This document shows, piece after piece, positions 32,736-54,398 of a stretch of DNA of 64,000 bases; position 1 is the stretch's first letter, and every line of letters begins with the position of its first letter. The notes beneath the pieces were generated by a model. That model had not been told where the DNA came from. It did no database searches and was given only the letters and a program-made list of their open reading frames with translations. The position numbers were made by a program, and so were the translations under genes. Origin of the DNA: Stenotrophomonas indicatrix (GTDB lineage: Bacteria; Pseudomonadota; Gammaproteobacteria; Xanthomonadales; Xanthomonadaceae); assembly GCF_002750975.1 (NCBI RefSeq), contig NZ_PEJS01000002.1, positions 62,001-126,000 on the forward strand. Reading direction: 5' to 3'.

Positions 32736-33374
32736 TCAGCCCGCCAGCACCGCGGCCTCGCGTGCCAGGCGCTCGACGCTGTCCCAGTCGCGGGTCTGCA
32801 TCAGCGCGGCGGTGGTCAGCCACGAACCGCCCACGCACAGCACGTTGGGCAGATGCAGGAACTGGCTGGCGGTCTGCGCACTGATGCCGCCGGTCGGGCA
32901 GAAGCGCACATCGCCGAACGGGCCGTGCCACGCCGACAGCATCGCCGCACCACCGGCCTGCACCGCCGGGAAGAACTTGAAGGTGTCCAGGCCGTGTTCC
33001 AGGCCGACGATCAGCTCCGAACCGGTGGCCACGCCAGGCAGGTAGGGCAGATCGGCATCGCGCGCGGCGGCATACAGCCGTGGGGTCGCCCCGGGCGACA
33101 CCGCAAAGCGGCCGCCGGCCTGTTTCACCGCCTGCATCTGCGCGGCATCGAGCACGGTGCCGGCACCAATCACCGCATCCGGCACGGCCTCGACCATCGC
33201 CTTGATGGCTTCCAGCGCGCGCGGTGTGCGCAGGGTCACCTCGATCACCGGCAGGCCGCCACGGAACAGCGCCTGCGCGACCTGTACCGCATCGTCGATG
33301 TCATCGGGGGTGAACACCGGAATCACCGGTGCCAGTTTCAGTACCGCACGAACGCGTGGATCAGCGCCGGACAT
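32736..33374 (-). CDS. eda: KDPG/KHG aldolase
   Basis: Eda splits 2-keto-3-deoxy-6-phosphogluconate to pyruvate and glyceraldehyde 3-phosphate. The 212-residue class I aldolase starts MSGADPRVRAVLKLAPVIPV at 33374. The Schiff-base lysine is in DTFKFFPAVQAGG and GLPVIEVTLRT carries the catalytic Glu. It overlaps the 3' end of kdgK by 14 bp, so it is translationally coupled to it. Together KdgK and Eda complete the last two steps of uronate breakdown begun by KduI and KduD at 51.5-53.2 kb. Confidence 0.96.
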   Translation of the reverse strand: MSGADPRVRAVLKLAPVIPVFTPDDIDDAVQVAQALFRGGLPVIEVTLRTPRALEAIKAMVEAVPDAVIGAGTVLDAAQMQAVKQAGGRFAVSPGATPRLYAAARDADLPYLPGVATGSELIVGLEHGLDTFKFFPAVQAGGAAMLSAWHGPFGDVRFCPTGGISAQTASQFLHLPNVLCVGGSWLTTAALMQTRDWDSVERLAREAAVLAG

Positions 33375-34380
33375 CGAATCGCTCCTCGCCCACCAGGGCC
33401 AACACATCAGCTTCGCTGACGGGATTGAAATCGCCGGGAATGGAATGCTTCAGGCCCCCGGCGGCCAGGCCGAAGCGCACGGTGGCGTCGGCATCGAAGG
33501 CCGACAGGATGCCATGCAGGATGCCTGCCGCGAAGGCATCACCGCCGCCGATGCGGTCGACGATGCCCTGCAGCTGGCGTACCGGGGCCTGTGCGCGGGT
33601 GCCATCGCGGCCCAGCAGCAGCGCGCCCAGCGCATGGTGGTCCACGCTCAGCGTCTGGCGCTGGGTGCAGGCCATCCACTGCAGCTGCGGGAACGCTTCG
33701 AACGCGGCCGCGGCCGCCGCTTCCACGCGCGCGACCACGTCGGCCTGTTCGAAACGCTGGCCGAGGATGACCTCGATATCGCGGTAGTCGGCGAAGACGA
33801 TGTCGGCCTGCGCGAACAGTTCGTGCAGGATCGACCGCGCATCGCCACCCCAGCGCTGCCACAGCTTCGGCCGGAAGTTGCCATCGAAGGACACGCGCAC
33901 GCCCAGTGCACGCGCAGCGCGCGCTGCGGCCAGGGTGGCCTGCGCCACGTCCGCGCCCAGCGCCGGGCTGACCCCGGACAGGTGCAGCCACTGCGCGCCC
34001 TGCAGCAATGCGGGCCAGTCGTAGTCGGCGGCGGTGCTGTTGGCGAATGCCGAATCGGCACGGTCGTAGACCACTTCGCTGGCCCGTTGCACCGCGCCGG
34101 TGGTCAGGAAGTACAGACCCATGCGGCCTTCGGCATCTTCGCGCACGCCGCGCGTATCGACCCCATGCCGGCGCAGTTCGGCCAGCGCATGCGCGCCGAG
34201 CGCGTTGCCGGCAACGGTGCTGACCATGGCCACGTCATGTCCAAAGCGGGACAGCGAGACAGCCACGTTCGCCTCGGCGCCGCCGACATGCACCTGCAGC
34301 TGCGGCGACTGCAGCAGCAGTTCGCGACCGGGCGCACCCAGGCGCAGCAGCAGTTCCCCGAAACACACGATACGACCCAT
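33361..34380 (-). CDS. kdgK: 2-dehydro-3-deoxygluconokinase (PfkB family)
   Basis: KdgK phosphorylates 2-keto-3-deoxygluconate to KDPG. The 339-residue ribokinase-family protein starts MGRIVCFGELLLRLGAPG at 34380, with GAGC in its leader. It has the PfkB signatures with the catalytic Asp in IGGGDAFAAGILHG and the N-terminal GGAEANVAVSLSRFG. It is first in the kdgK-eda operon and divergent from the TonB receptor gene. Two copies of the ATGACACCG motif lie in the shared 285-bp spacer. Confidence 0.94.
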   Translation of the reverse strand: MGRIVCFGELLLRLGAPGRELLLQSPQLQVHVGGAEANVAVSLSRFGHDVAMVSTVAGNALGAHALAELRRHGVDTRGVREDAEGRMGLYFLTTGAVQRASEVVYDRADSAFANSTAADYDWPALLQGAQWLHLSGVSPALGADVAQATLAAARAARALGVRVSFDGNFRPKLWQRWGGDARSILHELFAQADIVFADYRDIEVILGQRFEQADVVARVEAAAAAAFEAFPQLQWMACTQRQTLSVDHHALGALLLGRDGTRAQAPVRQLQGIVDRIGGGDAFAAGILHGILSAFDADATVRFGLAAGGLKHSIPGDFNPVSEADVLALVGEERFDVRR

Positions 34381-34462
34381 TTCTGCTCCTTCACGCGTGC
34401 CGCCCGCATGTGACACTGGGCGGCGTGGTAGTGGACCACGCGTGGGGCGTGGAATTGGCTAG

Positions 34463-34471
34463 CGGTGTCAT
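34463..34471 (-). promoter_or_regulatory. ATGACACCG operator candidate (kdgK/receptor spacer, site 1)
   Basis: Minus strand reads ATGACACCGCT; plus strand AGCGGTGTCAT at 34461-34471. It lies 83 bp upstream of kdgK. The same 11-mer recurs at 34608-34618. Confidence 0.6.
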
Positions 34472-34609
34472 TTCAATCCCGCCCATCCTTGCCCTTAGCC
34501 TACCAAACTGTTGGAAGCATTGTCCTGCAAGCGTCTTGGAGACATTTCAGATCTGTTGCGGTGCAAGATGCCGGATCGGGAACGTGCTGTTAACGTCCGG
34601 CCTGACCAG

Positions 34610-34618
34610 CGGTGTCAT
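34610..34618 (-). promoter_or_regulatory. ATGACACCG operator candidate (kdgK/receptor spacer, site 2)
   Basis: AGCGGTGTCAT at 34608-34618 is an exact second copy of the motif, 48 bp before the TonB receptor ATG. It is preceded by TGACC, giving a partial inverted match TGACC-AGCGGT-GTCA. Confidence 0.6.
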
Positions 34619-34665
34619 CCCGCTGAAACAGCCGCGATACCAGACCTTTGGGAGAGGGGAAAGGC

Positions 34666-37428
34666 ATGCATTCTCGGAACCATGAAAAAAAGACACCGGT
34701 TACCTTGCTCGCGTTGGGCGTCGCACTGGCCCTGGCAGGCAACGCCGGCGCGCAGCAGCAGAGCGCCAACCCGAACGCCACCGACCTGGATACGGTCACC
34801 GTCACCGGCTACCGCGCCAGCGTGGAGAAGGCGCTGGACATCAAGCGCGGCGAAGCCGGCGTGGTCGATGCCATCGTTGCCGAGGACATCGGCAAGTTCC
34901 CGGACCTGAACCTGGCCGAGTCGCTGCAGCGCATCCCGGGCGTGGTCATCACCCGCGAGGCCGGCGAAGGCCGCAACATCTCGGTGCGTGGCCTCGGCCC
35001 GGAATTCACCCGCGTGCGCATCAATGGCATGGAAGCGCTGACCACGGTCGGCGCCGGTGACCAGAGCGGCGGCACCAACCGCGGCCGTGGCTTCGACTTC
35101 AACGTCTTCGCCTCGGACCTGTTCTCGCAGCTGCTGGTGCGCAAGACCGCCTCGGCCGACGTCGAGGAAGGCTCGCTGGGCGCCACCGTCGATCTGCGCA
35201 CCGCACGCCCGTTCGACTACGACGGGTTCACCTTCGCCGCCAGTGGCCAGGCCAGCTACAACGCGATGGCCGAAAAGGCCGATCCGCGCATTGCGGCGCT
35301 GGTCTCCAACACCTTCGCCGATGGCACCTTCGGCGCGCTGCTGTCGGTGGCCTATTCCGAGCGCCAGGCGCTGGAGGAAGGCTCCAACACCGGTCGCTGG
35401 GCCAACGGCCCGAGCAACGGCAACTTCGCCGCGTCCTCGCCGTTCGCCGCCGCGCGTGGCGCCGATGTGTTCCATCCGCGCTTCCCGCGCTACGTGCAGA
35501 TGGAGCATGAGCAGAAGCGTCTGGGCGTGACCGGTTCGTTGCAGTGGAAGCCGAACGACGCCACCGAGATCTCGCTGGATGCGCTGTACTCGAAGATCGA
35601 CGCAACGCGAGACGAGCACTACATCGAGGCGATTTCCTTCAGCCGTGGCGCCAATGCGAGCGCACGCCTGTCGGGCAAGCCGACCACCATCGTCAAGAAC
35701 GGCGAGATCCGCGACAACGCACTGCTCTACGGCGAATTCGACAACGTCGACATCCGCACCGAGAACCGCCACGACGAGTGGAGCACCGAGTTCAAGCAGA
35801 TCGCGCTGAACGGCCAGCACCGCTTCGGTGATGACTTCACCCTGTCCGGCAAGATCGGCATCTCGCGCTCCAAGCACGAGAACCCGGTGCAGACCACCGT
35901 CATCATGGACAAGTACGATGTCGACGGTTACAGCTACGACTACCGTGGCAACAGCCGTGCGCCGATCCTCAACTACGGCATCGACCCGACCAATCCCAAC
36001 GGCTGGGAACTGGCCGAGATCCGCCTGCGTCCGCAGTACGTGGACAACGACTTCGACACCGGCCAGATCGACTTCAACTGGAACATCAGCCCGGGCTTCC
36101 GCCTGAAGGGCGGCGTGCTGGCCAAGGACTACACGTTCAAGACCGTCGAACTGCGCCGCGCCAGCGAACTGGCCGTGCCCAACTTCGCCGGCGGCACAAA
36201 GATCGTGCCGGTGAACCTGACCGAGCAGGCCGGACTGAAGGGCATCAACGGCAGTCCGTCGAACTGGGTCGTGCCGGACCTGGATGCGATCGCCGAACAG
36301 CTCGACATCTACAGCAACAGCGGCACCTTCGCCGTCGCCCCGCGCGCCAACAATGTGCGCAGCGTCGAAGAGAAGGACCGTGGCGCCTACCTGATGGGCG
36401 AGTTCTCCACCGAACTGGGCTCGCTGCCGTTGTCGGGCAATTTCGGTGTGCGCTACGTGCGCACCAAGCAGTCGGCCACCGGGCAGTCGACGCTGGCCAA
36501 CGGCACCGTCGAAACCACGGTCAGCCGTACCTACGATGACACCCTGCCCTCGTTCAACCTGGTGGCGGAAGTCACCCCGGACTTCCTGATCCGGCTGGGT
36601 GCGGCCAAGGTGATGAGCCGTCCGGGGCTGGGCAGCCTGACCCCGGGCGCGACGGTGGCCGTGGCCGGTGGTGCACGCACCATCTCCAGCGGCAACCCGA
36701 TGCTGGATCCGATCCGCGCAACCAATGTCGACCTTGGTTTCGAGTGGTACTTCGCCGAGGGCGCAATGGCCGGCATCGGCCTGTTCTACAAGGACATCGA
36801 GAGCTTCGTACAGACCACCCGCGAAGTGCGTCCGTACAGTGACAGCGGCCTGCCGGCTTCGCTGCTGGTCGGCACCGGCGCCTCGGCCACCGATGACTTC
36901 ACCTACAGCAAGCCGGTCAACACCCCGGGCGGCGAACTGCACGGCGTGGAGGCCAACTACACCCAGCCCTTCACCTTCCTGCCGGGCAAGTGGGCCAACC
37001 TGGGCATGCAGTTGAACTACACCTGGGTGGAATCGAAGATCCAGTACATCAACGCGGCCGGGCAGCCGGTGATGAAGACCGACCTGACCGGCCTGTCGAA
37101 GTCGTCGTGGAACGCCACGCTGTTCTATGAAGGCGAGAAGTTCGCCGGGCGCATCTCGGCCACCAACCGCGATGACTACCTGACCCAGGCACCGGGCCAG
37201 GAAACCGGCTTCAACCTCGATGGCTACCACGGAATGACCGGTACCACGGTGTTCGATGCATCCATCCGCTACAAGATCAGCGACCAGCTGGAACTGAGCC
37301 TGGAAGGCATCAACCTGACCAACGAAGCGTCCGACGAGTGGGTGTACTCGCCGCTGACCGGTCGCCTGCCGCTGCAGTACACCGAGACCGGCCGCCAGTA
37401 CCTGCTGGGGCTGCGCTACAAGTTCTGA
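34666..37428 (+). CDS. TonB-dependent receptor of the carbohydrate type
   Basis: A 920-residue outer-membrane transporter of the large Xanthomonas/Caulobacter TonB-dependent class, which often imports plant oligosaccharides. The start MHSRNHEKKTPVTLLALGV at 34666 is preferred over an upstream TTG at 34648 and has GGGGAAAGGC before it. The signal peptide ends at NAGA. The plug shows SLQRIPGVVITREAGEGRN and VRGLGPEFTRVRINGM, and the protein ends LLGLRYKF with a C-terminal Phe. It shares its regulatory region with kdgK and precedes the 1267-residue secreted protein by 136 bp, which points to import of the oligo-uronide fed to this locus. The ligand itself is inferred. Confidence 0.93.
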   Translation: MHSRNHEKKTPVTLLALGVALALAGNAGAQQQSANPNATDLDTVTVTGYRASVEKALDIKRGEAGVVDAIVAEDIGKFPDLNLAESLQRIPGVVITREAGEGRNISVRGLGPEFTRVRINGMEALTTVGAGDQSGGTNRGRGFDFNVFASDLFSQLLVRKTASADVEEGSLGATVDLRTARPFDYDGFTFAASGQASYNAMAEKADPRIAALVSNTFADGTFGALLSVAYSERQALEEGSNTGRWANGPSNGNFAASSPFAAARGADVFHPRFPRYVQMEHEQKRLGVTGSLQWKPNDATEISLDALYSKIDATRDEHYIEAISFSRGANASARLSGKPTTIVKNGEIRDNALLYGEFDNVDIRTENRHDEWSTEFKQIALNGQHRFGDDFTLSGKIGISRSKHENPVQTTVIMDKYDVDGYSYDYRGNSRAPILNYGIDPTNPNGWELAEIRLRPQYVDNDFDTGQIDFNWNISPGFRLKGGVLAKDYTFKTVELRRASELAVPNFAGGTKIVPVNLTEQAGLKGINGSPSNWVVPDLDAIAEQLDIYSNSGTFAVAPRANNVRSVEEKDRGAYLMGEFSTELGSLPLSGNFGVRYVRTKQSATGQSTLANGTVETTVSRTYDDTLPSFNLVAEVTPDFLIRLGAAKVMSRPGLGSLTPGATVAVAGGARTISSGNPMLDPIRATNVDLGFEWYFAEGAMAGIGLFYKDIESFVQTTREVRPYSDSGLPASLLVGTGASATDDFTYSKPVNTPGGELHGVEANYTQPFTFLPGKWANLGMQLNYTWVESKIQYINAAGQPVMKTDLTGLSKSSWNATLFYEGEKFAGRISATNRDDYLTQAPGQETGFNLDGYHGMTGTTVFDASIRYKISDQLELSLEGINLTNEASDEWVYSPLTGRLPLQYTETGRQYLLGLRYKF

Positions 37429-37436
37429 GCAACGCC

Positions 37437-37564: not shown

Positions 37565-40500
37565 ATGCCGCACCGCTCGACCCTGTCCCGCTGCCTGTTG
37601 CTGGCGGTGGCCCTGGCTGCCGGCCCCGCGATGGCCGCCGCCGATGCGCCCACGCTGCTGTTCCATGTCGATGCCGGCAAAGGCCTTGAGGCCGTGGTGG
37701 CGCAGGGTGAGGCGGTGCCGAACTTCCGCGACAAGGTCGACATCGTCGACGACGGAGCGCGCGGCAAGGCCATCCAGTGGCAGGACGACGGCGTGCTGGC
37801 CTGGGATGCACCCGGCAACATCCTCGCCCAGCGTGGCACCCTCGCCTTCGACTGGCGCGCGCGCTACGCGGTGGGTGAAGCACCGTTCGTGATCTTCCGC
37901 GTCGGCTATGCCGACCACAGCAGCTGGGACATGGCCTGGCTGCGCATCGACTGGAACGGGCATGGTTTCGATGCGTTCGTCACCGATGCCAACCTCGCCC
38001 GCACGCGCGTGTCGTTCCGCATGGACACGCCGCCACGTGCGGACCAGTGGCTGCACCTGGCCTTCGCCTGGGACGAAGACCAGGGTGTACGCCTGTTCGT
38101 CGATGGCCGCGAGGTGGCGCGTGTGCTGGCCAGCGGCGATTACGATGCCGCGCTGGACCAGCTCGGCCTGGCCGGGCGGGTGATGGCGCCCTACCAGGTG
38201 CAGAGCCGCTACAACTTCCTGCGTGGCAGCGATTTCCAGCACATCCGCGTGTATGACCGCATGCTCGATGCTGCGGCCGTCAGTGCGCTCGCGCGCGGCA
38301 AGGCCGCCGAAAGCGCCGTTGCCAGCGCTGCCGATGATCGTGCCTGGCGCCATCGCTTCGGCTGGGAAGGCGCGCCGCCACCGCCATTGACCGCAGCCAG
38401 CACGCGCATCCGCAAGATCGAATTCGACGATGCCCGCGACCTCAAGGCGTGGATGTGGAAGGCCACCGACGGCATCGCCGAGACCACCTGGCCGGGTGTC
38501 TACAACCGCTCGCGCCTGCCCGGCCGCAACGACTATTTCCAGTTGCCGGACTGGAACACGTATGTGGAAAGCGGCCAGCATCTGGACCTGACCGTGCCGG
38601 CCGGCGAGACCGTCAACCGGGTGGAGATCCGCGGCGCGGCCTTCGGCACGCTGGCCCATGGCCGCGATGCCGCGCACGCCACCCAGGTGCTGGCGACGCG
38701 TCCGCAGGGTGTGGTGCGCAGCGTGGACGACATCCCCGCACAGACCGGTGGCGTGCTGCGCTTCAGCAACGTTGAACAGGAAACGCCGATCCAGGAGATC
38801 TGGGCGTATGGCGTGAGCGAAGGTGCCGAGCCCGACGGCACGGTCAAGCAGACCTATGTCATCGACAGCCAGGCACTGCCGGACTACACCAACCTGGACA
38901 CACTGCGCCGCTACATCGAAGGCCGCTACCCGGCGGCCGAACGCAGCACGGTGATGGCGCTGCCCAAGGGGGCGGGCTCGCGCCGGCGCCCGGCCGATTC
39001 GTTGCCAACGCAGCCCAAGCCCATCGTGCACGTGCTGATTCCCTCCGGCGTGGGCGATGCGCCGGCCAACCAGCCGTTGATCCGCAGCTGGGCCTACAGC
39101 TGGGAGAACATGCATGACGGCCTGGATGGCGTGGCCATCGATATTCCCGCGCTCGACCTGCCGGCCACGCACGATCGCCTGATCCCGCTGAACATCCGCA
39201 TCAAGGATCCGATCTGGCCGGCGCGCGACATGATCGATGTATCGGTCTCGGTGCAGCCGGGGCAGAAGCGCACGCTGTGGCTGGACCTGCGCGACCGCAT
39301 CCTCACCGCCGACAGCCTGTGGTTGAGCATCGCCTCGGCTGCGCCCGGCTTCGACGCCAAGGCACTGGACGGTGCGCAGGTGCGGCTGGTGTTCAAGCCA
39401 CGCGCCGATGCGCTCAAGGAACACGTGGCCGACCGCTTCAACCAGGTGCGCGACAACTGGGGCTTCCTCGTGGAGGAACACACCACCTCCAAGCGCCAGC
39501 GCCTGTACGCGCGCGTCTACGCGGACCTGAGCGATCTGCTGCGCGTCGACCCGGACCACGAACTGGGCCGGTTGTACTGGAACTACATCAGCTACAACAG
39601 CCAGGGGCGACCGCCGTACACCGCGCCGGAGGTGCCCAAGGGCGTACCGGCGTGGGCCTTCCACCAGGTGCAGGACCTGGCGCAGGTGCGGCAGTTCGTC
39701 GACTGGTGGATCGATCAGCGGCAGGTGGCCTACGGCGATTTCGGTGGTGGCATCTCCGATGATTCCGACCTGACCCAGCAGTGGCCCGGCCTTGCCCTGA
39801 TGGGCGTGCAGCCGGACCGTCTGAATGCCTCGCTGACCGCATTGTCCGACGCGGTGTACCGCAACGGCATGTTCAGCAATGGCCTGAGCACCATCGAGAC
39901 CGACGAGCTGCATGCCTACGAGGAAGGCATCAACACCAACAGCGCGATGCTGTACCTCAACTGGGGCGATCCGCTGACCCTGGAACGGCTGATGGAAACG
40001 GTGAAGGCGTTCGACGAGCGCATCATCCTGCGCAACACGCAGGGCCATGTGCTGTTCTCCAGCAACTGGTTCGGTGGCAACAAGGTCTACCGCGAACCCA
40101 ACTGGCAGTGGCAGAAGCCGTACTCGTTCCCGGTGCTGCACCCGGCATTCCTGCTGGGCCAGTACAACGCCGACCCGACCGGGCGCCGGCTGGTGATCGG
40201 CCTGGCCGATGGCTATCTGGCCCACGCCGGCACCGACGACAAGGGCCGCTTCACCCTGCCCAACGAGATCAACTGGGCCTCGGGTGCGACCCGCGGCGGC
40301 GAACTCAACAATGGTTCCGGCAGCGGTGACACGATGCACACCTTCTGGGCGGCATGGCGCTGGACCGGTGATGCGAAGTACCTGCAGGCACTGGACTATC
40401 GCGTGCAGCGCGGCGGCCCCGGCGCGCTGGCCAACCTTGGCGAGAACTATGTAGAGGCACTTGGTCGGCAGCAGGACTGGTACCCGCTGCTGACCGCCGA

Positions 40501-41368
40501 GGCCGATGCCGGAAAGACCGGTTTCGCCAGCCTGATGGCATGGCAGGCCAGCGGCGAGCGGAAGTACATCGACGCGCTGCATGCCGAGGGCCTGCAGGCC
40601 AAGGCACAACGCGCGTACATGAACACCGATGGCCATTGGTGGTCCGACCGGGTGGAAGCACCGAGCGAGTTCCTGCAGCGTGCGCGGCTGGGCGGCATCG
40701 CCCTGAAGCGCAACCAGAGCTGGCCCGGGCACACCGTCAGCTGGCGCTTCGATCGTGAGGGCGCCGCGGAACAGGTGGCACTGCTGGTGCATGCGCCCTC
40801 GCGTGAGCGCTTCACGATCACCAGCCACAACCTCGGCGCGCGCGTGATCGCCGCCGACATGACCGGCTGGAACGTGGGCAGCGGTTCCTGGCGCGTGCGC
40901 AGTGGCGTGGATGCCGATGGCGATGGCCACATTGACGGTAGGCCGCGCGAGCGTACGGTGCAGCTGGAGACGAGTGCGTCGGTACCGATGCAGTTCCAGC
41001 CGGGTCGCACCGAGGTCTTCGAATTCGAGCGTGTGTCTGCGGGCACGCCGGTGGAAATGCGTCCGGACCTGGGCGTGGGCCGTGGCGATGTGCGGGTGGA
41101 CGGGCGCCAGGTACACGTGACCGTGCATGGCCTTGGGCATGTGGCCAGCGGTGTGGGCGTGGCGATACTGGAAGATGCGCGGGGCCGCGAGATCGCACGC
41201 ACCGAAGTGCCGGCGATGGCGGCACCGACCGACCTGCTGCCGAAGACGGCGGTGGTGTCGTTGCCGTTGCCGGCAGGGGATCGCGGCGGCCTGCGCGTAC
41301 GTGTTGCGCTGGCCGATGGCGGAGAGGAAGTCACGCGGCTCAACAATGTGGTGGATGTGCCGCGATGA
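37565..41368 (+). CDS. Large secreted protein with LamG-like domain, candidate polysaccharide-degrading enzyme
   Basis: A 1267-residue protein with a signal peptide (MPHRSTLSRCLLLAVALAAGPAMA). Residues about 27-270 look like a LamG/concanavalin-type beta-sandwich (GTLAFDWRARYAVGEAP, DQWLHLAFAWDEDQGVRLFV). The middle and C-terminal parts are rich in Trp, Gly and Asp with alternating helices suggestive of an alpha/alpha toroid, e.g. TMHTFWAAWRWTGDAKYL (near residue 923). The C-terminal 150 residues look beta-rich. No known CAZy family was recognised. It follows the carbohydrate TonB receptor and lies in a locus with KduI, KduD, KdgK and Eda but no identifiable lyase, so a depolymerase or unsaturated-uronide-releasing role is inferred. 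ATG at 37565 follows AAAGGAAAC. Confidence 0.7.
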   Translation: MPHRSTLSRCLLLAVALAAGPAMAAADAPTLLFHVDAGKGLEAVVAQGEAVPNFRDKVDIVDDGARGKAIQWQDDGVLAWDAPGNILAQRGTLAFDWRARYAVGEAPFVIFRVGYADHSSWDMAWLRIDWNGHGFDAFVTDANLARTRVSFRMDTPPRADQWLHLAFAWDEDQGVRLFVDGREVARVLASGDYDAALDQLGLAGRVMAPYQVQSRYNFLRGSDFQHIRVYDRMLDAAAVSALARGKAAESAVASAADDRAWRHRFGWEGAPPPPLTAASTRIRKIEFDDARDLKAWMWKATDGIAETTWPGVYNRSRLPGRNDYFQLPDWNTYVESGQHLDLTVPAGETVNRVEIRGAAFGTLAHGRDAAHATQVLATRPQGVVRSVDDIPAQTGGVLRFSNVEQETPIQEIWAYGVSEGAEPDGTVKQTYVIDSQALPDYTNLDTLRRYIEGRYPAAERSTVMALPKGAGSRRRPADSLPTQPKPIVHVLIPSGVGDAPANQPLIRSWAYSWENMHDGLDGVAIDIPALDLPATHDRLIPLNIRIKDPIWPARDMIDVSVSVQPGQKRTLWLDLRDRILTADSLWLSIASAAPGFDAKALDGAQVRLVFKPRADALKEHVADRFNQVRDNWGFLVEEHTTSKRQRLYARVYADLSDLLRVDPDHELGRLYWNYISYNSQGRPPYTAPEVPKGVPAWAFHQVQDLAQVRQFVDWWIDQRQVAYGDFGGGISDDSDLTQQWPGLALMGVQPDRLNASLTALSDAVYRNGMFSNGLSTIETDELHAYEEGINTNSAMLYLNWGDPLTLERLMETVKAFDERIILRNTQGHVLFSSNWFGGNKVYREPNWQWQKPYSFPVLHPAFLLGQYNADPTGRRLVIGLADGYLAHAGTDDKGRFTLPNEINWASGATRGGELNNGSGSGDTMHTFWAAWRWTGDAKYLQALDYRVQRGGPGALANLGENYVEALGRQQDWYPLLTAEADAGKTGFASLMAWQASGERKYIDALHAEGLQAKAQRAYMNTDGHWWSDRVEAPSEFLQRARLGGIALKRNQSWPGHTVSWRFDREGAAEQVALLVHAPSRERFTITSHNLGARVIAADMTGWNVGSGSWRVRSGVDADGDGHIDGRPRERTVQLETSASVPMQFQPGRTEVFEFERVSAGTPVEMRPDLGVGRGDVRVDGRQVHVTVHGLGHVASGVGVAILEDARGREIARTEVPAMAAPTDLLPKTAVVSLPLPAGDRGGLRVRVALADGGEEVTRLNNVVDVPR

Positions 41369-41379
41369 ATTCCGCGTTC

Positions 41380-41456
41380 CGCCGGGCATGGCCCGGCGCT
41401 ACCGATGAATCGGTGGACCACAAGCCCTGCTAGATAGCGCCGGGCCATGCCCGGCG
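41380..41456. repeat. SMAG/REP palindrome pair (GCCGGGC type, tail-to-tail)
   Basis: CGCCGGGCATGGCCCGGCG...CTAC at 41380-41402 and a second hairpin at 41434-41456 starting ATAG rather than GTAG. The tags face each other, the opposite arrangement from most pairs here. It separates the plus-strand secreted protein from the converging cupin gene. Confidence 0.85.
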
Positions 41457-41464
41457 GAACGCAA

Positions 41465-42095: not shown

Positions 42096-42104
42096 CGGTG
42101 TCAT
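42096..42104 (-). promoter_or_regulatory. ATGACACCG operator candidate (cupin gene)
   Basis: Minus strand ATGACACCGCGGTGC is a partial palindrome centred on CACCGCGGTG. It starts 44 bp upstream of the cupin ATG and overlaps the end of the carboxylesterase gene. Confidence 0.55.
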
Positions 42105-44809: not shown

Positions 44810-44863
44810 CCTCCTGCAGACGCTGTCGATGGGCAGTGCAACAACGCCAGAGGGAGACCGTTC

Positions 44864-45691: not shown

Positions 45692-45730
45692 CCGCCGCAC
45701 GATCCGGTGAACACGCGCGGGAGGGCGCAG

Positions 45731-46735
45731 ATGATCACACGACGACATTTCCTGGCCGGCGGCGCTGCTGCGCTGGCCACCCCGATGCTCGCGGCCTGTG
45801 GCCGCAGGCCCGCCGATGCCATCGACGGCGGCCAGCTGCTGACGGCCACCGACGTGCACGTGGCCGACTACCCCACCGTGACCGCGGTGAAGTGGATCGG
45901 CGAAACCCTGCAGCGCGAAAGCAACGGTCGCCTGCGCCTGCGGCAATACCATTCGGGCCAACTCGGTCGCGAATCGGAAGCGATCGACATGGCCCGTTTC
46001 GGTGCCATCGACATCACCCGCGTGTATGCCGGTGCGTTGAACAACGCTTTCCCGCTCACCCAGGCGCTGTGCCTGCCGTACGTGTTCGAGTCGGTGGCGC
46101 ACCAGCGCGCCGCACTGGATGGCGGCATTGCCGATGCGGTGCTGCGTGGTTTCGAGAGCCGCGACCTGGTCGGCCTGGCCATCTATGATTCCGGCGCACG
46201 CTGCTTCTACAACACCAAGCATCCGATCGTGCAGCCCGGTGATCTGCACGGGCTGAAACTGCGTGTGGCGTCCTCGGACATCTTCATCCAGCTGATGCGC
46301 CTGCTCGGCGCCAACCCGACGCCGATGTCGCTGGGCGATACGTTCTCCGGCATGGAGACGCACATGATCGATGGCGCCGAGAACAACATGCGCAGCTTCC
46401 ATTCCAGCCGCCACTTCGAGGCCGCGCACTACTGGTCGCAGAGCGATCACTCGTATGCGCCGGACGTGCTGTTGATGTCGCGCGCCAGTTTCGAGCGCCT
46501 GCAGCCGGCCGACCGCCAGCTGCTGCTGGAGACCGCGCGCGCTTCGGTGAAGGTGATGCGCGAGCAATGGGATGCGTCCGAAGATGCCGCGCGCCGCGCG
46601 GTGCTGGCCTCGGGCGTGAAAGCCAACGAGGTGGACCTGCCCGCCTTCCGTGCCGCCGCCCAGCCGCTGCTGCAGCAGTACCTGCAGCAACCCGAGCTGG
46701 CTGCGCTGGTCGCCCGCATCCGTGCCGCCGCCTGA
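45731..46735 (+). CDS. TRAP transporter substrate-binding protein (DctP family)
   Basis: A 334-residue periplasmic solute-binding protein of the DctP type. It starts MITRRHFLAGGAAALATPMLAAC, with a twin-arginine motif followed by a lipobox LAAC, so it is probably a Tat-exported lipoprotein. The conserved TRAP arginine lies in KLRVASSDIFIQLM, and METHMIDGAENN matches the family's ligand-binding segment. A GGGAGGG Shine-Dalgarno lies before the ATG. Sugar acids and uronates are common DctP ligands, which fits the locus. dctQ follows after 10 bp. Confidence 0.92.
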   Translation: MITRRHFLAGGAAALATPMLAACGRRPADAIDGGQLLTATDVHVADYPTVTAVKWIGETLQRESNGRLRLRQYHSGQLGRESEAIDMARFGAIDITRVYAGALNNAFPLTQALCLPYVFESVAHQRAALDGGIADAVLRGFESRDLVGLAIYDSGARCFYNTKHPIVQPGDLHGLKLRVASSDIFIQLMRLLGANPTPMSLGDTFSGMETHMIDGAENNMRSFHSSRHFEAAHYWSQSDHSYAPDVLLMSRASFERLQPADRQLLLETARASVKVMREQWDASEDAARRAVLASGVKANEVDLPAFRAAAQPLLQQYLQQPELAALVARIRAAA

Positions 46736-46745: not shown

Positions 46746-47279
46746 ATGACCGAGACGACGATTTCCACCGGACCCGGCCCCGGCCAACGCTTGCTGGACC
46801 GCATCGCCGACATCGCCATCCATGTTGCCGTGGCCGCGCTGCTGGGGCTGGTGGTGGTGCAGGGCTGGCAGGTGTTCGCCCGCTACGTGATCAACGATTC
46901 GCCCAGCTGGACCGAGCCGGTGACCCTGCTGCTGCTGGCCACCGCCATGAGCCTTGGCGCGGCCTGCGGCGTGCACACCAATCGCCACTTCGGCTTCTTC
47001 CTGCTGCACGCCTACATGGGCGCCGGCCTGCGCCGGGTGGTGGATGTGTTCACCCAGCTGGTGGTGGCCGTGCTGGGCGGCTTCATCGCGTTCTGGTCGG
47101 CCGACCTGCTGCTCGATGGAATGGACATCAAGACCGCCGGCGCCAACCTGCCGCAGAGCATCAACTACCTGCCGCTGGCCGTGGGCGGTGCGCTGATGCT
47201 GTTGTTCGCGCTGAACCGTGCGTGGAAAGCGCTGCATGCCGCGGCAGCCGACGCCGACGACGCTGAAGGAGATCGTTGA
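46746..47279 (+). CDS. TRAP transporter small permease (DctQ family)
   Basis: A 177-residue four-helix membrane subunit of a TRAP transporter. Hydrophobic segments are IAIHVAVAALLGLVVVQGW, PVTLLLLATAMSLGAACG, VDVFTQLVVAVLGGFIAFW and LPLAVGGALMLLFALNRAW. The conserved DctQ motif F-A-R-Y-V is present (VFARYVINDSPSWTEP). It lies 10 bp after dctP and 3 bp before dctM. Confidence 0.92.
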   Translation: MTETTISTGPGPGQRLLDRIADIAIHVAVAALLGLVVVQGWQVFARYVINDSPSWTEPVTLLLLATAMSLGAACGVHTNRHFGFFLLHAYMGAGLRRVVDVFTQLVVAVLGGFIAFWSADLLLDGMDIKTAGANLPQSINYLPLAVGGALMLLFALNRAWKALHAAAADADDAEGDR

Positions 47280-47282: not shown

Positions 47283-48566
47283 ATGGGCATCACCATCCTG
47301 TTCTCTGTTTTTGCCGCGCTGCTGCTGTTGGGCGTGCCGGTGGCCTACGCGCTGGCCGCCGCTGCGCTGGCCACCCTGCTCTACCTGGACATTCCCAGCA
47401 TCGTGCTGGTCCAGCAGATCTCCGCAGGTACCGGTTCGGCCTCGTTGATTGCCATTCCACTGTTCATCTTCGCTGGCGAGATCATGATGCGCGGCGGCAT
47501 CTCCGAACGCCTGATCGCCCTGGCGTCATCGCTGGTCGGGCGCATGCGCGGCGGCCTGGGCCAGGTCTCGATCCTGTCCTCGCTGTTCTTCGGCGGTGTA
47601 TCCGGCTCGGCCATCGCCGATGTGTCGGCGGTGGGCGGCACGATGATTCCGCAGATGGTCAAGCGTGGCTACGACCGCGATTTCGCGGTCAACGTCAGCA
47701 TCACCGCTGCGCTGGTGGCGCTGCTGGTGCCGCCGTCGCACAACCTGATCCTGTTCTCGGCCGCCGCCGGTGGTGGCCTGTCGATCGCCGACCTGTTCGC
47801 CGCCGGCATCGTGCCGGCGCTGCTGATGACCCTGGCGTTGATGATCACCGGTTACGTGGTCGCGCGTCGCCGTGGTTATGGCGTGGAAGTGTTCCCGGGC
47901 TGGCGTGCGGTGCTGCTGCGCATCGTCTCTGCCCTGCCCGGCCTGGGCCTGGTGGCGCTGATCTTCGTGGGTATCCGCGCCGGCATCTTCACTGCGGTGG
48001 AAAGCGCGGCCATCGCCGTGGTCTACGCCCTGCTGGTCACCACCGTGCTGTACCGGCAGCTGCGCTGGCGTGAGTTCTTCGACACCGTCATCCATGCCGC
48101 GCGCAGCACCGGCGTGATCCTGTTCGTGATCGCCACCGCGGCGGTGTTCGGCTGGCTTCTGGCCTACCTGCAGGTGCCTGCGGCGGCGGTGGACTTCCTG
48201 CAGTCGTTCGCGCACAGCCAGTTCATGGTGCTGCTGATGATCGTGGTGATGCTGCTGCTGCTGGGCACCTTCATGGACCTGGCACCGATGATCCTGATCT
48301 GCACGCCGATCTTCCTGCCGGTGGCCAAGGCCTATGGCATCGATCCGATCCACTTCGGCCTGGTGCTGGTGCTGACCGGTGGCCTCGGCCTGGTCACGCC
48401 GCCGGTGGGCTCGGTGCTGTTCATCGGTACCGCCATCGGCAAGATCAGCGTCGGCCAGAGCATGCGCACGATCTGGCCGTTCTGGTTTGCCGCGCTGGGC
48501 GTGCTGCTGATCGTCACCTTCTTCCCGTCGCTGTCGCTGTGGCTGCCCGCCGCGCTGCGCGCCTGA
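47283..48566 (+). CDS. TRAP transporter large permease (DctM family)
   Basis: A 427-residue permease with about twelve membrane helices and the DctM signatures FAGEIMMRGGISERLIALAS and GGVSGSAIADVSAVGG, and GLVTPPVGSVLF near the C-terminus. With DctP and DctQ it forms a complete sodium- or proton-driven tripartite importer. Genes are packed with 3-10 bp spacing, and the GH43 gene follows after 17 bp. Confidence 0.95.
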   Translation: MGITILFSVFAALLLLGVPVAYALAAAALATLLYLDIPSIVLVQQISAGTGSASLIAIPLFIFAGEIMMRGGISERLIALASSLVGRMRGGLGQVSILSSLFFGGVSGSAIADVSAVGGTMIPQMVKRGYDRDFAVNVSITAALVALLVPPSHNLILFSAAAGGGLSIADLFAAGIVPALLMTLALMITGYVVARRRGYGVEVFPGWRAVLLRIVSALPGLGLVALIFVGIRAGIFTAVESAAIAVVYALLVTTVLYRQLRWREFFDTVIHAARSTGVILFVIATAAVFGWLLAYLQVPAAAVDFLQSFAHSQFMVLLMIVVMLLLLGTFMDLAPMILICTPIFLPVAKAYGIDPIHFGLVLVLTGGLGLVTPPVGSVLFIGTAIGKISVGQSMRTIWPFWFAALGVLLIVTFFPSLSLWLPAALRA

Positions 48567-48583
48567 TGAGCGGAGGCAATCAC

Positions 48584-50173
48584 ATGACACCGACGCTGCA
48601 CCGCGCTGCTGCAACCGCCCTGCTCGGCCTGCTGCTGGCCGCGCTGCCTGCCCTGGCTGCCGACCCCGCGCCCGCGCAGTGGAAGCGCGGCATCGAGCAC
48701 CAGCGCCAGGGCGACCTTGGCAACGGTACCTTCCTCAACCCGGTGCTGGCCGGTGACAGGCCCGATCCGTCGGTGCTGAAGGACGGCGAGGATTACTACC
48801 TCACCCTGTCTTCGTTCGACGCCTACCCCGGCCTGCCGATCTGGCACTCGCGCGACCTGGTCAACTGGCAGCCGCTCGGCCATGCGATCACGCAGAACGT
48901 AGGCGCGATCTGGGCGCCGGACATCGTCAAGCACCAGGGCCGCTACTTCATCTACTTCCCGGCGCGCACCGGTGAGCGCCGCAGCAACTTCGTGGTCTGG
49001 GCCGATGACATCAAGGGCCCGTGGAGTGCGCCGATCGACATCGGCCTGGGCGGCTACATCGACCCCGGCCATGCGGTTGGCGAGGACGGCAAGCGCTACC
49101 TGTTCCTCAGCGGCGGCAACTACGTGCAGCTGGCCGATGACGGCCTGAGCGTGGTGGGTACGCCCAAGCATGTGTACGACGGCTGGCGCTACCCGGAAAG
49201 CTGGGACGTGGAGGCCTACGCGCAGGAAGGCCCGAAGATCCACTTCCGCGATGGCTGGTACTACATGACCACTGCGGTGGGCGGCACCGCCGGCCCGCCG
49301 ACCGGGCACATGGTGATCACCGCGCGCTCGCGCTCGATCCACGGCCCGTGGGTGAACGCGCCGAACAACCCGATCATGCGCACCCGGTCGGCCGCTGAAC
49401 CATGGTGGTCGCGTGGCCACGCCACGGTGATCGAAGGCACCGATGGCCGCTGGTGGATGATGTACCACGGCTACGAGAACGGCTTCTGGACGCTGGGCCG
49501 GCAGGCGCTGCTGGAACCCATCGAATGGACCGCCGATGGCTGGTTCGTGGCCAAGGGCGGCGATCTCGGGCAGCCGCTGCGCAAGCCATCGGGCAGCGCG
49601 CTGGCACCGCACGGCATGGCCCTGTCGGATGCTTTCACCGGCCGTACGCTGGGCCCGCAGTGGGCGTTCTTCAACCCGGCGCTGGATGAATACCGGCGCC
49701 TGCGCTTCAGCGGTGATGGCCTGGTACTGCAGGGCAAGGGCAGCACGCCGCGCGACGCCTCGCCGCTGACGACCATTGCCGGGGACCCGGCCTACCAGTT
49801 CGAGGTGCAGATGGAGATCGCCCCCGGCGCGGTGGGCGGTGCCCTGCTGTTCTACAGCGACCGCCTGTACGTGGGCGTGGGCAGCAACGGCGAGCAGTTC
49901 GTCATGCACCGCTACGGCGAGGAGCGCCCCACCCGGCTGGCGGCCAGCGCCAAGGGCGGCCGGCTCTGGCTGCGGGTGACCAACAACCGCCACATCGTCA
50001 CCATCCATTCCAGCGCCGATGGCCAGACCTGGCAGAAGTATCCGGTTCAGATGGAAGTGTCCGGTTACCATCACAATGTGGCTGGCAAGTTCCTGGCACT
50101 GAAACCGGCCCTGTATGCGGCCGGCAACGGTGCGGTAACCTTCCGCAGCTTCCGCTATCGCGCGCTGGACTGA
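48584..50173 (+). CDS. Glycoside hydrolase family 43 protein
   Basis: A 529-residue secreted protein (signal MTPTLHRAAATALLGLLLAALPALA) with a five-bladed beta-propeller of GH43 type. The catalytic base is Asp in AGDRPDPSVLKDGEDYY, the pKa-modulating Asp in IWAPDIVKHQGRYF, and the general-acid Glu in AYAQEGPKIHF. The C-terminal ~200 residues look like a concanavalin-type beta-sandwich (ALSDAFTGRTLGPQW, TNNRHIVTIHSSADGQTWQK). GH43 enzymes remove arabinose or xylose residues, or related sugars, from plant polysaccharides. It has a GGAGG ribosome binding site and follows dctM in the same operon. Confidence 0.93.
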   Translation: MTPTLHRAAATALLGLLLAALPALAADPAPAQWKRGIEHQRQGDLGNGTFLNPVLAGDRPDPSVLKDGEDYYLTLSSFDAYPGLPIWHSRDLVNWQPLGHAITQNVGAIWAPDIVKHQGRYFIYFPARTGERRSNFVVWADDIKGPWSAPIDIGLGGYIDPGHAVGEDGKRYLFLSGGNYVQLADDGLSVVGTPKHVYDGWRYPESWDVEAYAQEGPKIHFRDGWYYMTTAVGGTAGPPTGHMVITARSRSIHGPWVNAPNNPIMRTRSAAEPWWSRGHATVIEGTDGRWWMMYHGYENGFWTLGRQALLEPIEWTADGWFVAKGGDLGQPLRKPSGSALAPHGMALSDAFTGRTLGPQWAFFNPALDEYRRLRFSGDGLVLQGKGSTPRDASPLTTIAGDPAYQFEVQMEIAPGAVGGALLFYSDRLYVGVGSNGEQFVMHRYGEERPTRLAASAKGGRLWLRVTNNRHIVTIHSSADGQTWQKYPVQMEVSGYHHNVAGKFLALKPALYAAGNGAVTFRSFRYRALD

Positions 50174-50211: not shown

Positions 50212-51270
50212 ATGTCAGTGCGCAACAAGAACGATGCCGCTACGCCGGCATTGGCAAAGGGCAAGGCAGCCACGATCAACGACATCGCGCGACTGTCGGG
50301 TGTATCCAAGAAAACGGTTTCAAGGATCATCAACAACTCGCCGCTGGTGCGCAAGGACACGCGCGACAAGGTGGAAGCGTTGATGCGCGAAGTCGGCTAC
50401 ACCCCCGACCCGCTGGCCCGTGGCCTGGCCTTCCGCCGCTCGTTCCTGATCGGCATGGTCTACGACAACCCCACCGCGCAGTACATCGTGGACATGCAGT
50501 ACGGCGCGCTGGATGCGCTGCGTGGCTCCAGCTTCGAACTGGTGGTGCACCCCTGCGACAGCCGAAGCCCGGGCTACATCGACGGCGTGCGCCGCTTCGC
50601 CCAGCAGCAGAAGCTGCATGGGGTGATCCTGGTGCCGCGTGCGTCCGAAGACCAGGCGCTGGCGGACATGCTGGACGAGATCGGTTGCCGCTTCACACGC
50701 GTGGCTGCGTTGCCGCTGGATGAAACCTCGCAGATGGTGGTCACCCACGACCGCGACGGTGCCGCCGAAGCGGCCGATTACCTGCTTTCGCTGGGCCACC
50801 GTGACATCGCCCTGGTGACCGGCCCCAGTGCATACCGCTCGGCGCACGAACGCACCGCCGGCTTCATCGAGGCGCTGTCGCAGCGTGGCATCGAGCTGCC
50901 GAAGGATCGCATCATCGAGGCCGGCTACACCTTCGAATCGGGTGTGGCCGCCGCCGAGAAACTGCTGCTGGGCAAGCGCCGGCCGACGGCGATCTTCACC
51001 GGCAACGATGAAATGGCCGCCGGTATCTACAAGGTCGCGCTGCGTGCGGGCATCAACATTCCGCGCCAGCTGTCGATCGTCGGTTACGACGACAGCCCGC
51101 TGGCCTCGCGTCTGTGGCCGTCGCTGACCTCGGTGCGCCGGCATACCCGCGACACCGGCCGCACCGCTGCGGCCATGCTGATCCAGCCTGAAGGCCAGCC
51201 TGCGCTGCAGATCGCCAGCGTGCGCCCGCACCTGATCGTGCGCGATTCCTGCCAACCGCCCGAGGATTGA
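50212..51270 (+). CDS. LacI-family transcriptional regulator
   Basis: A 352-residue repressor with an N-terminal helix-turn-helix (ATINDIARLSGVSKKTVSRI, residues about 21-40) and hinge region, then a periplasmic-binding-protein-like sensor domain ending in a typical LacI segment (VALRAGINIPRQLSIVGYDDSPLASRLWPSLTSV). It follows GH43 by 38 bp and is 243 bp before kduI. It is the best candidate for binding the ATGACACCG sites of this locus, with 2-keto-3-deoxygluconate or a related intermediate as a plausible effector; both points are inference. Confidence 0.93.
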   Translation: MSVRNKNDAATPALAKGKAATINDIARLSGVSKKTVSRIINNSPLVRKDTRDKVEALMREVGYTPDPLARGLAFRRSFLIGMVYDNPTAQYIVDMQYGALDALRGSSFELVVHPCDSRSPGYIDGVRRFAQQQKLHGVILVPRASEDQALADMLDEIGCRFTRVAALPLDETSQMVVTHDRDGAAEAADYLLSLGHRDIALVTGPSAYRSAHERTAGFIEALSQRGIELPKDRIIEAGYTFESGVAAAEKLLLGKRRPTAIFTGNDEMAAGIYKVALRAGINIPRQLSIVGYDDSPLASRLWPSLTSVRRHTRDTGRTAAAMLIQPEGQPALQIASVRPHLIVRDSCQPPED

Positions 51271-51316: not shown

Positions 51317-51333
51317 CTTCACGGATCAGTCCG

Positions 51334-51427: not shown

Positions 51428-51456
51428 ATGACACCGGTTTCCTGTCTGGCTAGAAT
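51428..51456 (+). promoter_or_regulatory. kduI promoter overlapping the ATGACACCG motif
   Basis: ATGACA (51428-51433) resembles a -35 hexamer, and TAGAAT (51451-51456) is a -10 with exactly 17 bp between them. The regulatory 9-mer ATGACACCG starts at 51428, so a repressor bound there would cover the -35 region. ATGACACCGGTTT matches the site at 44787. Confidence 0.6.
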
Positions 51457-51465
51457 CGACCGTGA

Positions 51466-52362
<897 letters not shown>

Positions 52363-52442
52363 GCACTAACAGGCCGCCGCGCATGCTGTGCGGTGGTCAC
52401 TTGCCTGCATCACGCACGCCTCTACCAAGGAACGCATACGCA

Positions 52443-53198
52443 ATGACCAATCCCTTCAGCCTGGAAGGAAAAGTCGCTCTGGTAACCGGTGGCAATACCG
52501 GCCTGGGCCAGGGCATCGCGGTGGCGCTGGCTGCCGCAGGCGCCGATGTCGCCGTGGCCGGCATCGCCCCGCCCACCGAAACCATCGAGAAGATCACCGC
52601 GCTGGGCCGCCGCTGCCTAGCGGTGGAAGCCAACCTGATCAGCATCGAGCCGGTCGAGCGCGTGGTGCGCGAAACGCTCGAAGGCCTGGGCGGGCTGGAC
52701 ATCCTGGTCAACAACGCCGGCCTGATCCGCCGCGCCGACGCAGTGGACTTCAGCGAGCAGGACTGGGACGACGTGATGAACGTCAACATCAAGTCGGCTT
52801 TCTTCATCTCGCAGGCCGCCGGCCGGCATTTCATCGCCCAGGGCAGCGGCAAGATCATCAACATCGCCTCGATGCTGTCGTTCCAGGGCGGCATCCGCGT
52901 ACCGTCGTACACCGCCAGCAAGAGCGGCATCGCCGGCATCACCCGCCTGCTGGCCAACGAGTGGGCGGGCAAGGGCGTGAACATCAACGCGATCGCACCG
53001 GGCTACATGGCCACCGACAACACCGCCGCGCTGCGCGCCGACCAGGACCGCAACAAGGCGATCCTCGAGCGCATTCCGGCCGGCCGTTGGGGTACGCCGG
53101 AAGATCTGGCCGGCGCGGCGGTGTTCCTGGCCTCGTCGGCGTCGGATTACATCAACGGCGCGGTGCTGCCGGTCGATGGTGGCTGGCTGGCGCGGTAA
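52443..53198 (+). CDS. kduD: 2-dehydro-3-deoxy-D-gluconate 5-dehydrogenase
   Basis: KduD reduces 2,5-diketo-3-deoxygluconate to 2-keto-3-deoxygluconate, the substrate of KdgK. The 251-residue short-chain dehydrogenase has the Rossmann motif TGGNTGLGQGIA, the NNAG motif, the catalytic Ser in IASMLSFQGG and Tyr-Lys in YTASKSG. The ATG at 52443 has AAGGAACGCATACGCA upstream. It forms the DKI-to-KDG pair with kduI. A SMAG pair follows 13 bp after the stop. Confidence 0.96.
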   Translation: MTNPFSLEGKVALVTGGNTGLGQGIAVALAAAGADVAVAGIAPPTETIEKITALGRRCLAVEANLISIEPVERVVRETLEGLGGLDILVNNAGLIRRADAVDFSEQDWDDVMNVNIKSAFFISQAAGRHFIAQGSGKIINIASMLSFQGGIRVPSYTASKSGIAGITRLLANEWAGKGVNINAIAPGYMATDNTAALRADQDRNKAILERIPAGRWGTPEDLAGAAVFLASSASDYINGAVLPVDGGWLAR

Positions 53199-53211
53199 TG
53201 CTTGGTTTTCG

Positions 53212-53288
53212 GTAGTGCCGGCCACTGGCCGGCATTTCCACCGACGCTCAACGCATCCATGAAGTTGCCGGCCAGCGGCCGGCACTAC
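53212..53288. repeat. SMAG/REP palindrome pair (TGCCGGCC type)
   Basis: GTAGTGCCGGCCACTGGCC at 53212 and an inverted copy ending GGCACTAC at 53288, just 12 bp before the next gene's ATG. The palindrome therefore lies in the leader of the GDSL-cupin gene. Confidence 0.88.
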
Positions 53289-53300
53289 CAGGGCCCGGCC

Positions 53301-54398
53301 ATGCGGAAGCTGTTGTTGCTGTTGCTGCTGTCGAGCGCCGCCGCGCATGCGGCGCCGGTGCGATTGTTCATTGCCGGTGACTCCACTGCGGCCGAATACG
53401 GGCCCGAGCGTGCGCCGCAGGCGGGGTGGGGCCAGGCGCTGCAGAGCTACCTGGATCCGGCGCGCTTCGAAGTGCGAAACCACGCCAAGGGTGGGCGCAG
53501 CACGCGCAGCTTCATCGACGAAGGACGCCTGGATGCCATGGGGCGCGAACTGCGTCGTGGCGATGTGCTGCTGATCCAGTTCGGCCACAACGATGCGAAG
53601 TTCGAAGACCGCACGCGCTACACCGATCCGGACAGTGACTACCCGCGGATGCTGATGCGCTACGTGCAGGTGGCGCGTGACCACGGTGCCACGCCGGTGC
53701 TGGTCACGCCGGTGGCACGGCTGCTGTACGACTTTGGTTCACTGCTGGATACGCACGCGCGTTACACGTTGGCGATGCAGCAGCTGGCCACACGCGAGCA
53801 CGTTGCACTGATCGACCTCAACGACCGCAGCATGCGCTGGATCCGCGCGCTGGGTGAGCAGGGTGCACGCCCGTACTTCCTGTTCGTGCCGGAACAGCAC
53901 AAGGCCGACGGCACCCACTTCAGCGTGGCCGGCGCCAACGCGGTGGCGTGCCTGGTGCTGCGCGAGGCGGTGCAGGTTCTGCCGGCGCTGCAGGCTGCAC
54001 TGGTGCGCGATATCGACTGCGAAGTGATGGGGGTGGGGCAGGGCGGCGATCCTGCGCGTGCCTCGCAGGTGGTGCACGAAGACACGCTGGCGCGCGCGCA
54101 ACCGGGCCCACATGGCGGCGCCGGGCCGACCACGGCGTACCCGTTCTTCGCCGATGCGCAGGGCCTGCCGTTCGTGCTGCGCAAGCGCGTGCTGCACAAG
54201 GGCGCGGGCATCGGCCTGCATCCGCAGCACAAGGATGAGATCTACTACATCGTGAGCGGGCAGGGCAGCTATGTGCTGGATGGAAAACAGCACGACGTGC
54301 GTGCGGGGCATGCGCTGCTGACGCGCAAGGGCAGCAGCCATGCGCTGCAGCAGGTGGGCGATGAGGATCTGGTGGTGCTGCTGGCGTATCCGCGGTAA
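53301..54398 (+). CDS. GDSL acetylesterase fused to a cupin domain
   Basis: A 365-residue secreted protein (signal MRKLLLLLLLSSAAAHA). Residues 20-235 form an SGNH hydrolase: FIAGDST (block I), NHAKGGRST (block II), FGHNDAK (block III) and DGTHFS (block V), the pattern of rhamnogalacturonan acetylesterases. Residues about 285-365 are a separate cupin fold with H307, E313 and H347 (LHPQHKDEIYYIVSGQGSY). The second His of the usual HxH is Gln309. A cupin of this type could convert a released unsaturated uronide to DKI like KdgF, which is not otherwise present. The fusion is unusual. The ATG at 53301 gives a clean signal peptide, with a SMAG pair just upstream. Confidence 0.82.
   Translation: MRKLLLLLLLSSAAAHAAPVRLFIAGDSTAAEYGPERAPQAGWGQALQSYLDPARFEVRNHAKGGRSTRSFIDEGRLDAMGRELRRGDVLLIQFGHNDAKFEDRTRYTDPDSDYPRMLMRYVQVARDHGATPVLVTPVARLLYDFGSLLDTHARYTLAMQQLATREHVALIDLNDRSMRWIRALGEQGARPYFLFVPEQHKADGTHFSVAGANAVACLVLREAVQVLPALQAALVRDIDCEVMGVGQGGDPARASQVVHEDTLARAQPGPHGGAGPTTAYPFFADAQGLPFVLRKRVLHKGAGIGLHPQHKDEIYYIVSGQGSYVLDGKQHDVRAGHALLTRKGSSHALQQVGDEDLVVLLAYPR

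Follow-up and report, generated by a model that had tools for sequence, protein, structure and literature searches.

A candidate (oligo)galacturonate lyase of LamG-toroid architecture in the uronate locus of Stenotrophomonas indicatrix

Oligogalacturonate lyases of polysaccharide lyase (PL) family 22 (Ogl) convert oligomers to 5-dehydro-4-deoxy-D-glucuronate (DKI), and an established route comprising KduI, KduD, KdgK, and Eda leads from DKI to pyruvate. The substrate of KduI derives from unsaturated uronides, and because the enzyme works on what such uronides become, a source of them is needed. Here, we analyzed a stretch of 64,000 nucleotides of Stenotrophomonas indicatrix DNA (the window), in which a locus at positions 32736 to 54398 encodes this entire route. 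PL22 has the function that the pathway needs, but it has no match in the genome of the window. The gene at 37565 to 41368 (plus strand) encodes a 1267-residue, putatively secreted protein, referred to here as the candidate. We propose that this protein probably makes the unsaturated galacturonides of the pathway and is thus its depolymerase, representing an undescribed PL family. It is tied to the missing step by an operator shared with pathway genes, by its alternation with a second gene, X4, and by its linkage to genes for PL10 pectate lyase and pectin methylesterase (PME).

In Xanthomonas campestris, the pectin carbohydrate utilization (CUT) locus XCC0120 contains a TonB receptor gene 5' of PME and pectate lyase genes and is induced by polygalacturonate (PMC1790865); the accessible part of that report mentions no LamG protein, and the window locus differs in having no PME or recognized lyase. 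With respect to place in the pathway, the nearest counterparts of the candidate are the PL1 subfamily 2 (PL1_2) lyases (PfPL1, PDB 9BUJ; PelZ; BT_4115, BT_4116, and BT_4119) together with X4 of Lysobacter-like genomes, which has the same locus core and operator and whose presence alternates with that of the candidate. PL1 enzymes are beta-helices, however, and X4, with ~450 residues, is unrelated in sequence to the candidate. PL10 pectate lyases (PF09492) belong to the same pathway but co-occur with the candidate and also with X4, which points to a different step, and the glycoside hydrolase (GH) families GH88 and GH105 lack the additional LamG and beta domains of the candidate. The 1267-residue protein matched neither PF09492 nor PF07470 (GH88/105), and hhalign probabilities were 0.3% against 10 PL10 sequences, 0.7% against five GH88/105 sequences, and 0.3% against X4, all from shallow alignments (Neff of ~2).

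The initial annotation had noted that no known lyase, GH28, GH88, or GH105 could be recognized in the locus, and our searches agree. None was present among the locus open reading frames (ORFs) scanned, for which genes were called with Pfam and NCBIfam. Across the whole genome (4.56 Mb, 9 contigs), the models PF00544 (PL1), PF09492 (PL10), PF14583 (PL22), PF00295 (GH28), and PF07470 (GH88/105) gave zero matches at an E value of ≤0.001, with PL2, PL3, PL4, PL9, PL11, PL26, and other PL families not searched genome-wide; as a positive control, each of the five models matched 1 to 4 of 14 control genomes. Since PF00544 fails to recognize X4, the PL1 search alone would be insufficient to exclude a PL1_2 gene. 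This subfamily was covered by a sixth search with an X4 profile, which likewise gave zero matches at an E value of ≤0.001. The result exposes an annotation gap in the pectin use of Stenotrophomonas, Xanthomonas, Pseudoxanthomonas, and their relatives, which have KduI without a recognized enzyme that makes its substrate.

Gene neighborhoods and a shared operator

A family search that scored 7992 sequences and listed the top 120 found at least 2210 proteins related to the 1267-residue protein (E value of ≤0.001); among the matches listed, these came from Xanthomonadaceae, Caulobacter, Phenylobacterium, Sphingomonas, Nitrospirillum, and Rhizomicrobium. The closest Stenotrophomonas records listed were 95% and 92% identical to it, and a search of named genomes gave identities of 88 to 91%. 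Among the open-licence PubMed Central papers listed by our literature searches, none reported on the protein. From 309 named-genome stretches encoding a relative, 80 were kept (the named loci); neighboring ORFs, here and in the kduI loci discussed below, were picked mechanically by GC content at third codon positions.

The upstream receptor gene is conserved in 77 of the 80 named loci and kdgK in 75. A PL10 pectate lyase gene lies within the fetched stretch in 34 and a PME gene in 23, while X4 is present in none of the 80. Xanthomonas loci (for example, L068 and L070) have the gene order kdgK, two receptors, PME, PL10, and candidate; others, such as L060, have just kdgK, receptor, and candidate. 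Outside the window's class, in genome G223, relatives of LacI, KduI, KduD, KdgK, the receptor, and the esterases (36 to 59% identity) adjoin the candidate, as does a gene that by eye resembles uxaC.

These neighborhoods bear on the nature of the polymer. Unsaturated hexuronates from several sources feed into KduI, and toroid exo-lyases for rhamnogalacturonan exist, PL26 being an example. The candidate might accordingly be a lyase for another uronate backbone, either an exo-acting rhamnogalacturonan I lyase like PL26 or one directed at a microbial exopolysaccharide. We consider this the least probable of the readings weighed here: PL10 and PME, which recur in the named loci, both act on homogalacturonan, and polygalacturonate is the inducer of the X. 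campestris receptor system, which we take to be of the same locus type.

The composition of the loci varies in other respects. In three Stenotrophomonas loci (L036, L041, and L042), LacI and KduD persist without an intervening KduI, and two genomes (G612 and G624) carry the candidate with no KduI match genome-wide; in such cases, a different isomerase or a spontaneous reaction may take over. Genome G090 (loci L012 and L013, which have clusters in common with L039 and L054) retains eda, kdgK, receptor, and candidate, and the rest of the uronate locus 3' of the candidate is replaced by a set resembling hydroxyproline catabolism, as judged from sequence starts.

Intergenic regions of the window locus have a common operator, ATGACACCGST, found in four copies in the window versus 0.07 expected. 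A motif scan placed two copies between kdgK and the receptor gene (34461 to 34471 and 34608 to 34618, both on the minus strand), the second of them immediately 5' of the unit formed by the receptor (TIGR01782; 34666 to 37428, plus strand) and the candidate, whose gene directly follows that of the TonB receptor, as the initial annotation had it. The third copy (44787 to 44797, plus strand) separates the esterase genes from a unit that starts with a hydratase-like gene, orf402, and continues with a TRAP importer; the fourth (51428 to 51438, plus strand) is 5' of kduI. In the named loci, the operator is 5' of kdgK in 65 of 75 cases and near orf402 in 40 of 40; of the loci with X4, 17 of 18 have it close to X4 and 14 of 19 close to kduI. 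Just 13 of the 195 operator sites across 2.33 Mb of loci are near no mapped gene.

Four loci from other lineages have the operator core TGACACCGGT ~50 to 100 bp 5' of the candidate gene itself. The full motif is present in G223 and in the Caulobacter-like genome G351, and the core only in two Nitrospirillum loci (L089 and L092), whose sites are not independent of each other; among 4000 random 200-mers matched in composition, 2 contained the core. Based on cluster labels, at most two Pfam-scanned neighbors, and sequence starts, no pectin gene was recognized near the candidate in G351 or Nitrospirillum. One dehydrogenase of the Nitrospirillum loci aligns with KduD, and the G351 locus (L019) has one further core site, at 5132, apart from the candidate. 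Because the core precedes the gene in these lineages, the candidate looks, at the sequence level, like a regulon member in its own right. Taken together, a common operator lies 5' of the pathway genes and 5' of the candidate or its receptor, as in a pectin/uronate regulon. Its presumed reader is the LacI-family regulator encoded at 50212 to 51270 (plus strand; Pfam).

Alternation with a PL1_2-like gene

X4 matches the PL1_2 lyase PfPL1 (E value of 3.3e-28) and VexL (E value of 9e-8) and is labeled pectate lyase by several source databases; the four members scanned matched no Pfam family. In a survey of 247 genomes of the bacterial family, KduI was above the cut-off in 93, the candidate in 52, and X4 in 48. 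Of the KduI genomes, 46 have only the candidate and 45 only X4, leaving one with both (G563) and one with neither (G485). Outside these 93, the candidate occurs in five genomes, one of which (G593) has KduI fragments counted as no KduI, and X4 in two. A candidate copy with one internal stop (G566) was counted; a 79-residue candidate fragment (G555), a second partial copy (G577), and X4 fragments (G506 and G410) were dropped.

Of the 46 KduI genomes that lack the candidate, 19 supplied a kduI neighborhood for comparison. These candidate-free loci share much of the core, namely, orf402, TRAP, LacI, KduI, KduD, cupin, and esterases, and X4 adjoins orf402 in 18 of them; in the one remaining genome, X4 falls slightly outside the stretch. 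PL10 is present in five (L100, L105, L110, L114, and L116). Since PL10 is thus found with either the candidate or X4, the job shared by these two would be a step other than that of PL10.

On a quick KduI gene tree of 81 of the 93 genomes (80 fetched plus that of the window; G485 is among the 12 left out), the candidate/X4 state changes six times, with at least three changes forced by starred branches and with G563 left out of the count. The state is strongly clustered, as shuffled states gave a mean of ~27 changes, and the KduI genomes are therefore not independent points. Fisher tests on the co-occurrence table take no account of relatedness, and we did not read their values as probabilities. 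KduI was possibly transferred together with the locus, but in that case, too, candidate and X4 are exchanged for each other. The simplest reading is that they do the same job.

In another scenario, the candidate is an unsaturated-uronyl hydrolase that takes the role of GH88/GH105, with a toroid presumed similar to their (alpha/alpha)6 fold, and trims unsaturated end residues off oligomers that stem from other enzymes or organisms. In the survey, GH88/105 was above the cut-off in only 8 of the 247 genomes and in 2 of the 52 with the candidate; PL22 was above it in none, with seven weak matches. We regard a hydrolase as unlikely, given that the candidate alternates with the lyase-like X4, that the genome of the window has no lyase of the families searched to supply an unsaturated substrate, and that profile comparison with GH88/105 gave no similarity within the depth of the alignments described above.

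Architecture and proposed action of the candidate

The 1267-residue protein begins with a signal peptide (residues ~1 to 24, by eye), followed by a LamG domain (~25 to 247), a beta-domain (~279 to 612), a helical toroid (~613 to 1045), and a C-terminal beta region extending to residue 1267. Laminin_G_3 (PF13385; residues 126 to 239; E value of 6e-7) is its sole Pfam match over the cut-off. An AlphaFold2 model of residues 25 to 1165 (pLDDT of 89.4) comprises LamG, beta-domain, helical toroid, and C-terminal beta-domain. With both a PF13385 match and a jelly-roll fold, the N-terminal part is LamG/ConA-like, and the earlier label "LamG-toroid-like" proved correct. Invariant residues of the toroid include H639, H783, Y785, and R1029, which would suit a lyase, and D732, D733, and E786, which would suit a hydrolase.

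No catalytic family was assigned. An NCBIfam scan returned zero families at an E value of ≤0.001, and the protein matches none of the known PL families covered by Pfam and NCBIfam. Searching the PDB with the sequence gave zero matches at an E value of ≤1, and an 18-row profile gave two matches at chance level (best E value of 0.56). Toroid folds occur among the lyase families PL26, PL8, PL15, PL17, and PL21. A structure search with the LamG domain removed yielded a TMq of ≤0.16 in the best 50 of 1000 Foldseek chains, a match of fold class only; toroid lyases were absent from these best 50 of 1000 rows, which excludes nothing. A first search with the domain included was dominated by LamG, and its rows included clostridial neurotoxin binding domains, a likeness that reflects the common jelly-roll fold and is uninformative on function. 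Baseplate_J matched weakly in 6 of 18 relatives (best E value of 7e-5), one of which is named "baseplate J-like"; the match in the window protein is under the cut-off, and we took it as spurious.

Considering these data, we propose the following model. The 1267-residue protein would be secreted via its signal peptide, and the TonB receptor would take up galacturonide chains or oligomers, with the esterases and the GH43 enzyme stripping decorations. The LamG and beta domains of the candidate may hold the galacturonides while the helical toroid cuts by beta-elimination, most likely exolytically to unsaturated monomers. The TRAP importer would then carry the unsaturated monomer, and KduI, KduD, KdgK, and Eda would complete the route. 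In relatives, X4 would perform the same step in the candidate's stead. Beta-elimination, exo action, the galacturonide substrate, the place of the active site, and the monomer as the imported species are steps that we infer. Two points favor exo action with monomer release, namely, an importer type suited to monomers and the lack of PL22 and GH88/105. According to the accessible part of one report (PMC5507952), organic acids are the cargo of nearly all TRAP systems known. In its full extent, this model describes a widespread new lyase family that, by means of a toroid joined to LamG and beta domains, releases unsaturated galacturonate monomers exolytically, replaces PL22 plus GH88/105, and is exchanged whole with a PL1_2-type enzyme. 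To this extended form we give tentative credence, somewhat short of even.

Exo action is the least certain step of our proposal because the PL1_2 enzymes characterized so far act as pectin lyases, and PfPL1 is reported, in the accessible part of the paper, to initiate depolymerization (PMC11229556). Some genomes have the candidate without KduI, and X4 genomes are mostly without PL22 and GH88/105 as well, making a further shared enzyme conceivable. These last two points would fit an accessory enzyme, either debranching or acting on decorated pectin (xylogalacturonan or rhamnogalacturonan side chains), in an oligomer scavenger whose monomers are released by an unrecognized shared gene; the esterases and the GH43 of xylosidase/arabinofuranosidase type in the locus would suit it too. 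Such an arrangement strikes us as improbable, more so than a hydrolase, since a side-chain enzyme would not be expected to swap almost completely with a pectate lyase-like gene and since the locus has no other unexplained protein besides two cupin proteins and orf402.

We therefore retain a galacturonide lyase as the preferred function. The initial annotation had argued that an enzyme producing unsaturated uronides must exist and had put forward the 1267-residue protein. This suspicion comes out strengthened by the operator, the alternation with X4, and the PL10 and PME neighbors, and it is well supported by indirect evidence without being proved; catalysis itself, lyase or hydrolase chemistry, endo or exo action, and the exact uronide remain predictions. 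The alternation table and the operator make the protein a specific, testable candidate. If the proposal is true, the missing oligogalacturonate lyase step has been solved twice by unrelated proteins, thousands of "LamG domain-containing" proteins in databases could be named, and a lyase family with an unusual multidomain toroid architecture would be added.

Other genes of the locus

The catabolic and transport genes reported in the initial annotation were all recovered in place by Pfam and NCBIfam. On the minus strand, upstream of the receptor, are Eda, a KDPG/KHG aldolase (32736 to 33407), and the KdgK-type PfkB kinase (33361 to 34416). Beyond the candidate follow, on the same strand, a cysteine-dioxygenase-like cupin protein identified by library scan (41465 to 42052), a carboxylesterase (COesterase, Pfam; 42104 to 43774), and an esterase resembling the pectin acetylesterase PaeX (43723 to 44706), which at 293.9 bits scores below the PaeX equivalog cut-off of 550. 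The cysteine-dioxygenase-like cupin adjoins the candidate gene and was clustered in 23 loci.

All remaining genes are on the plus strand. The TRAP importer consists of DctP (45707 to 46735), DctQ (46746 to 47279), and DctM (47283 to 48566) and is followed by the GH43 gene with a GH43_C2 domain (Pfam; 48584 to 50173). Downstream of the LacI gene are KduI (51514 to 52362), with 409.8 bits against an NCBIfam equivalog cut-off of 250; the KduD-type short-chain dehydrogenase (52443 to 53198, in a frame of 52248 to 53198); and a fusion of a GDSL esterase with a C-terminal Cupin_2 domain (53301 to 54398). In the library scans, the receptor, GH43, KduI, and GDSL-cupin genes were given the wider bounds 34648 to 37428, 48539 to 50173, 51469 to 52362, and 53202 to 54398, respectively.

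The protein encoded by orf402 (conserved part only, ~44858 to 45691) is FAH/MhpD-like, with a 2-keto-4-pentenoate hydratase fold; its match to PF01557 is weak (16.4 bits, under the gathering score of 23.9). The gene is 5' of the TRAP genes in 40 of the 80 named loci, several others being incomplete, and also in 18 of the 19 candidate-free loci. Because DKI is a 4-hydroxy-2-oxo acid, a role as tautomerase or (de)hydratase in the pathway is conceivable. The Cupin_2 domain of the GDSL protein gave an E value of 0.3 to KdgF-type chains and 1.4e-8 to a putative oxalate decarboxylase, and in 10 of the 19 candidate-free loci the cupin part is near kduD, separate from the esterase; a KdgF-like role for the domain is possible, with a weak KdgF match. 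Finally, the intergenic stretches at 41365 to 41470 and 53195 to 53310 of the window contain GC-rich inverted repeats, apparently similar to the short palindromic repeats of Stenotrophomonas maltophilia.

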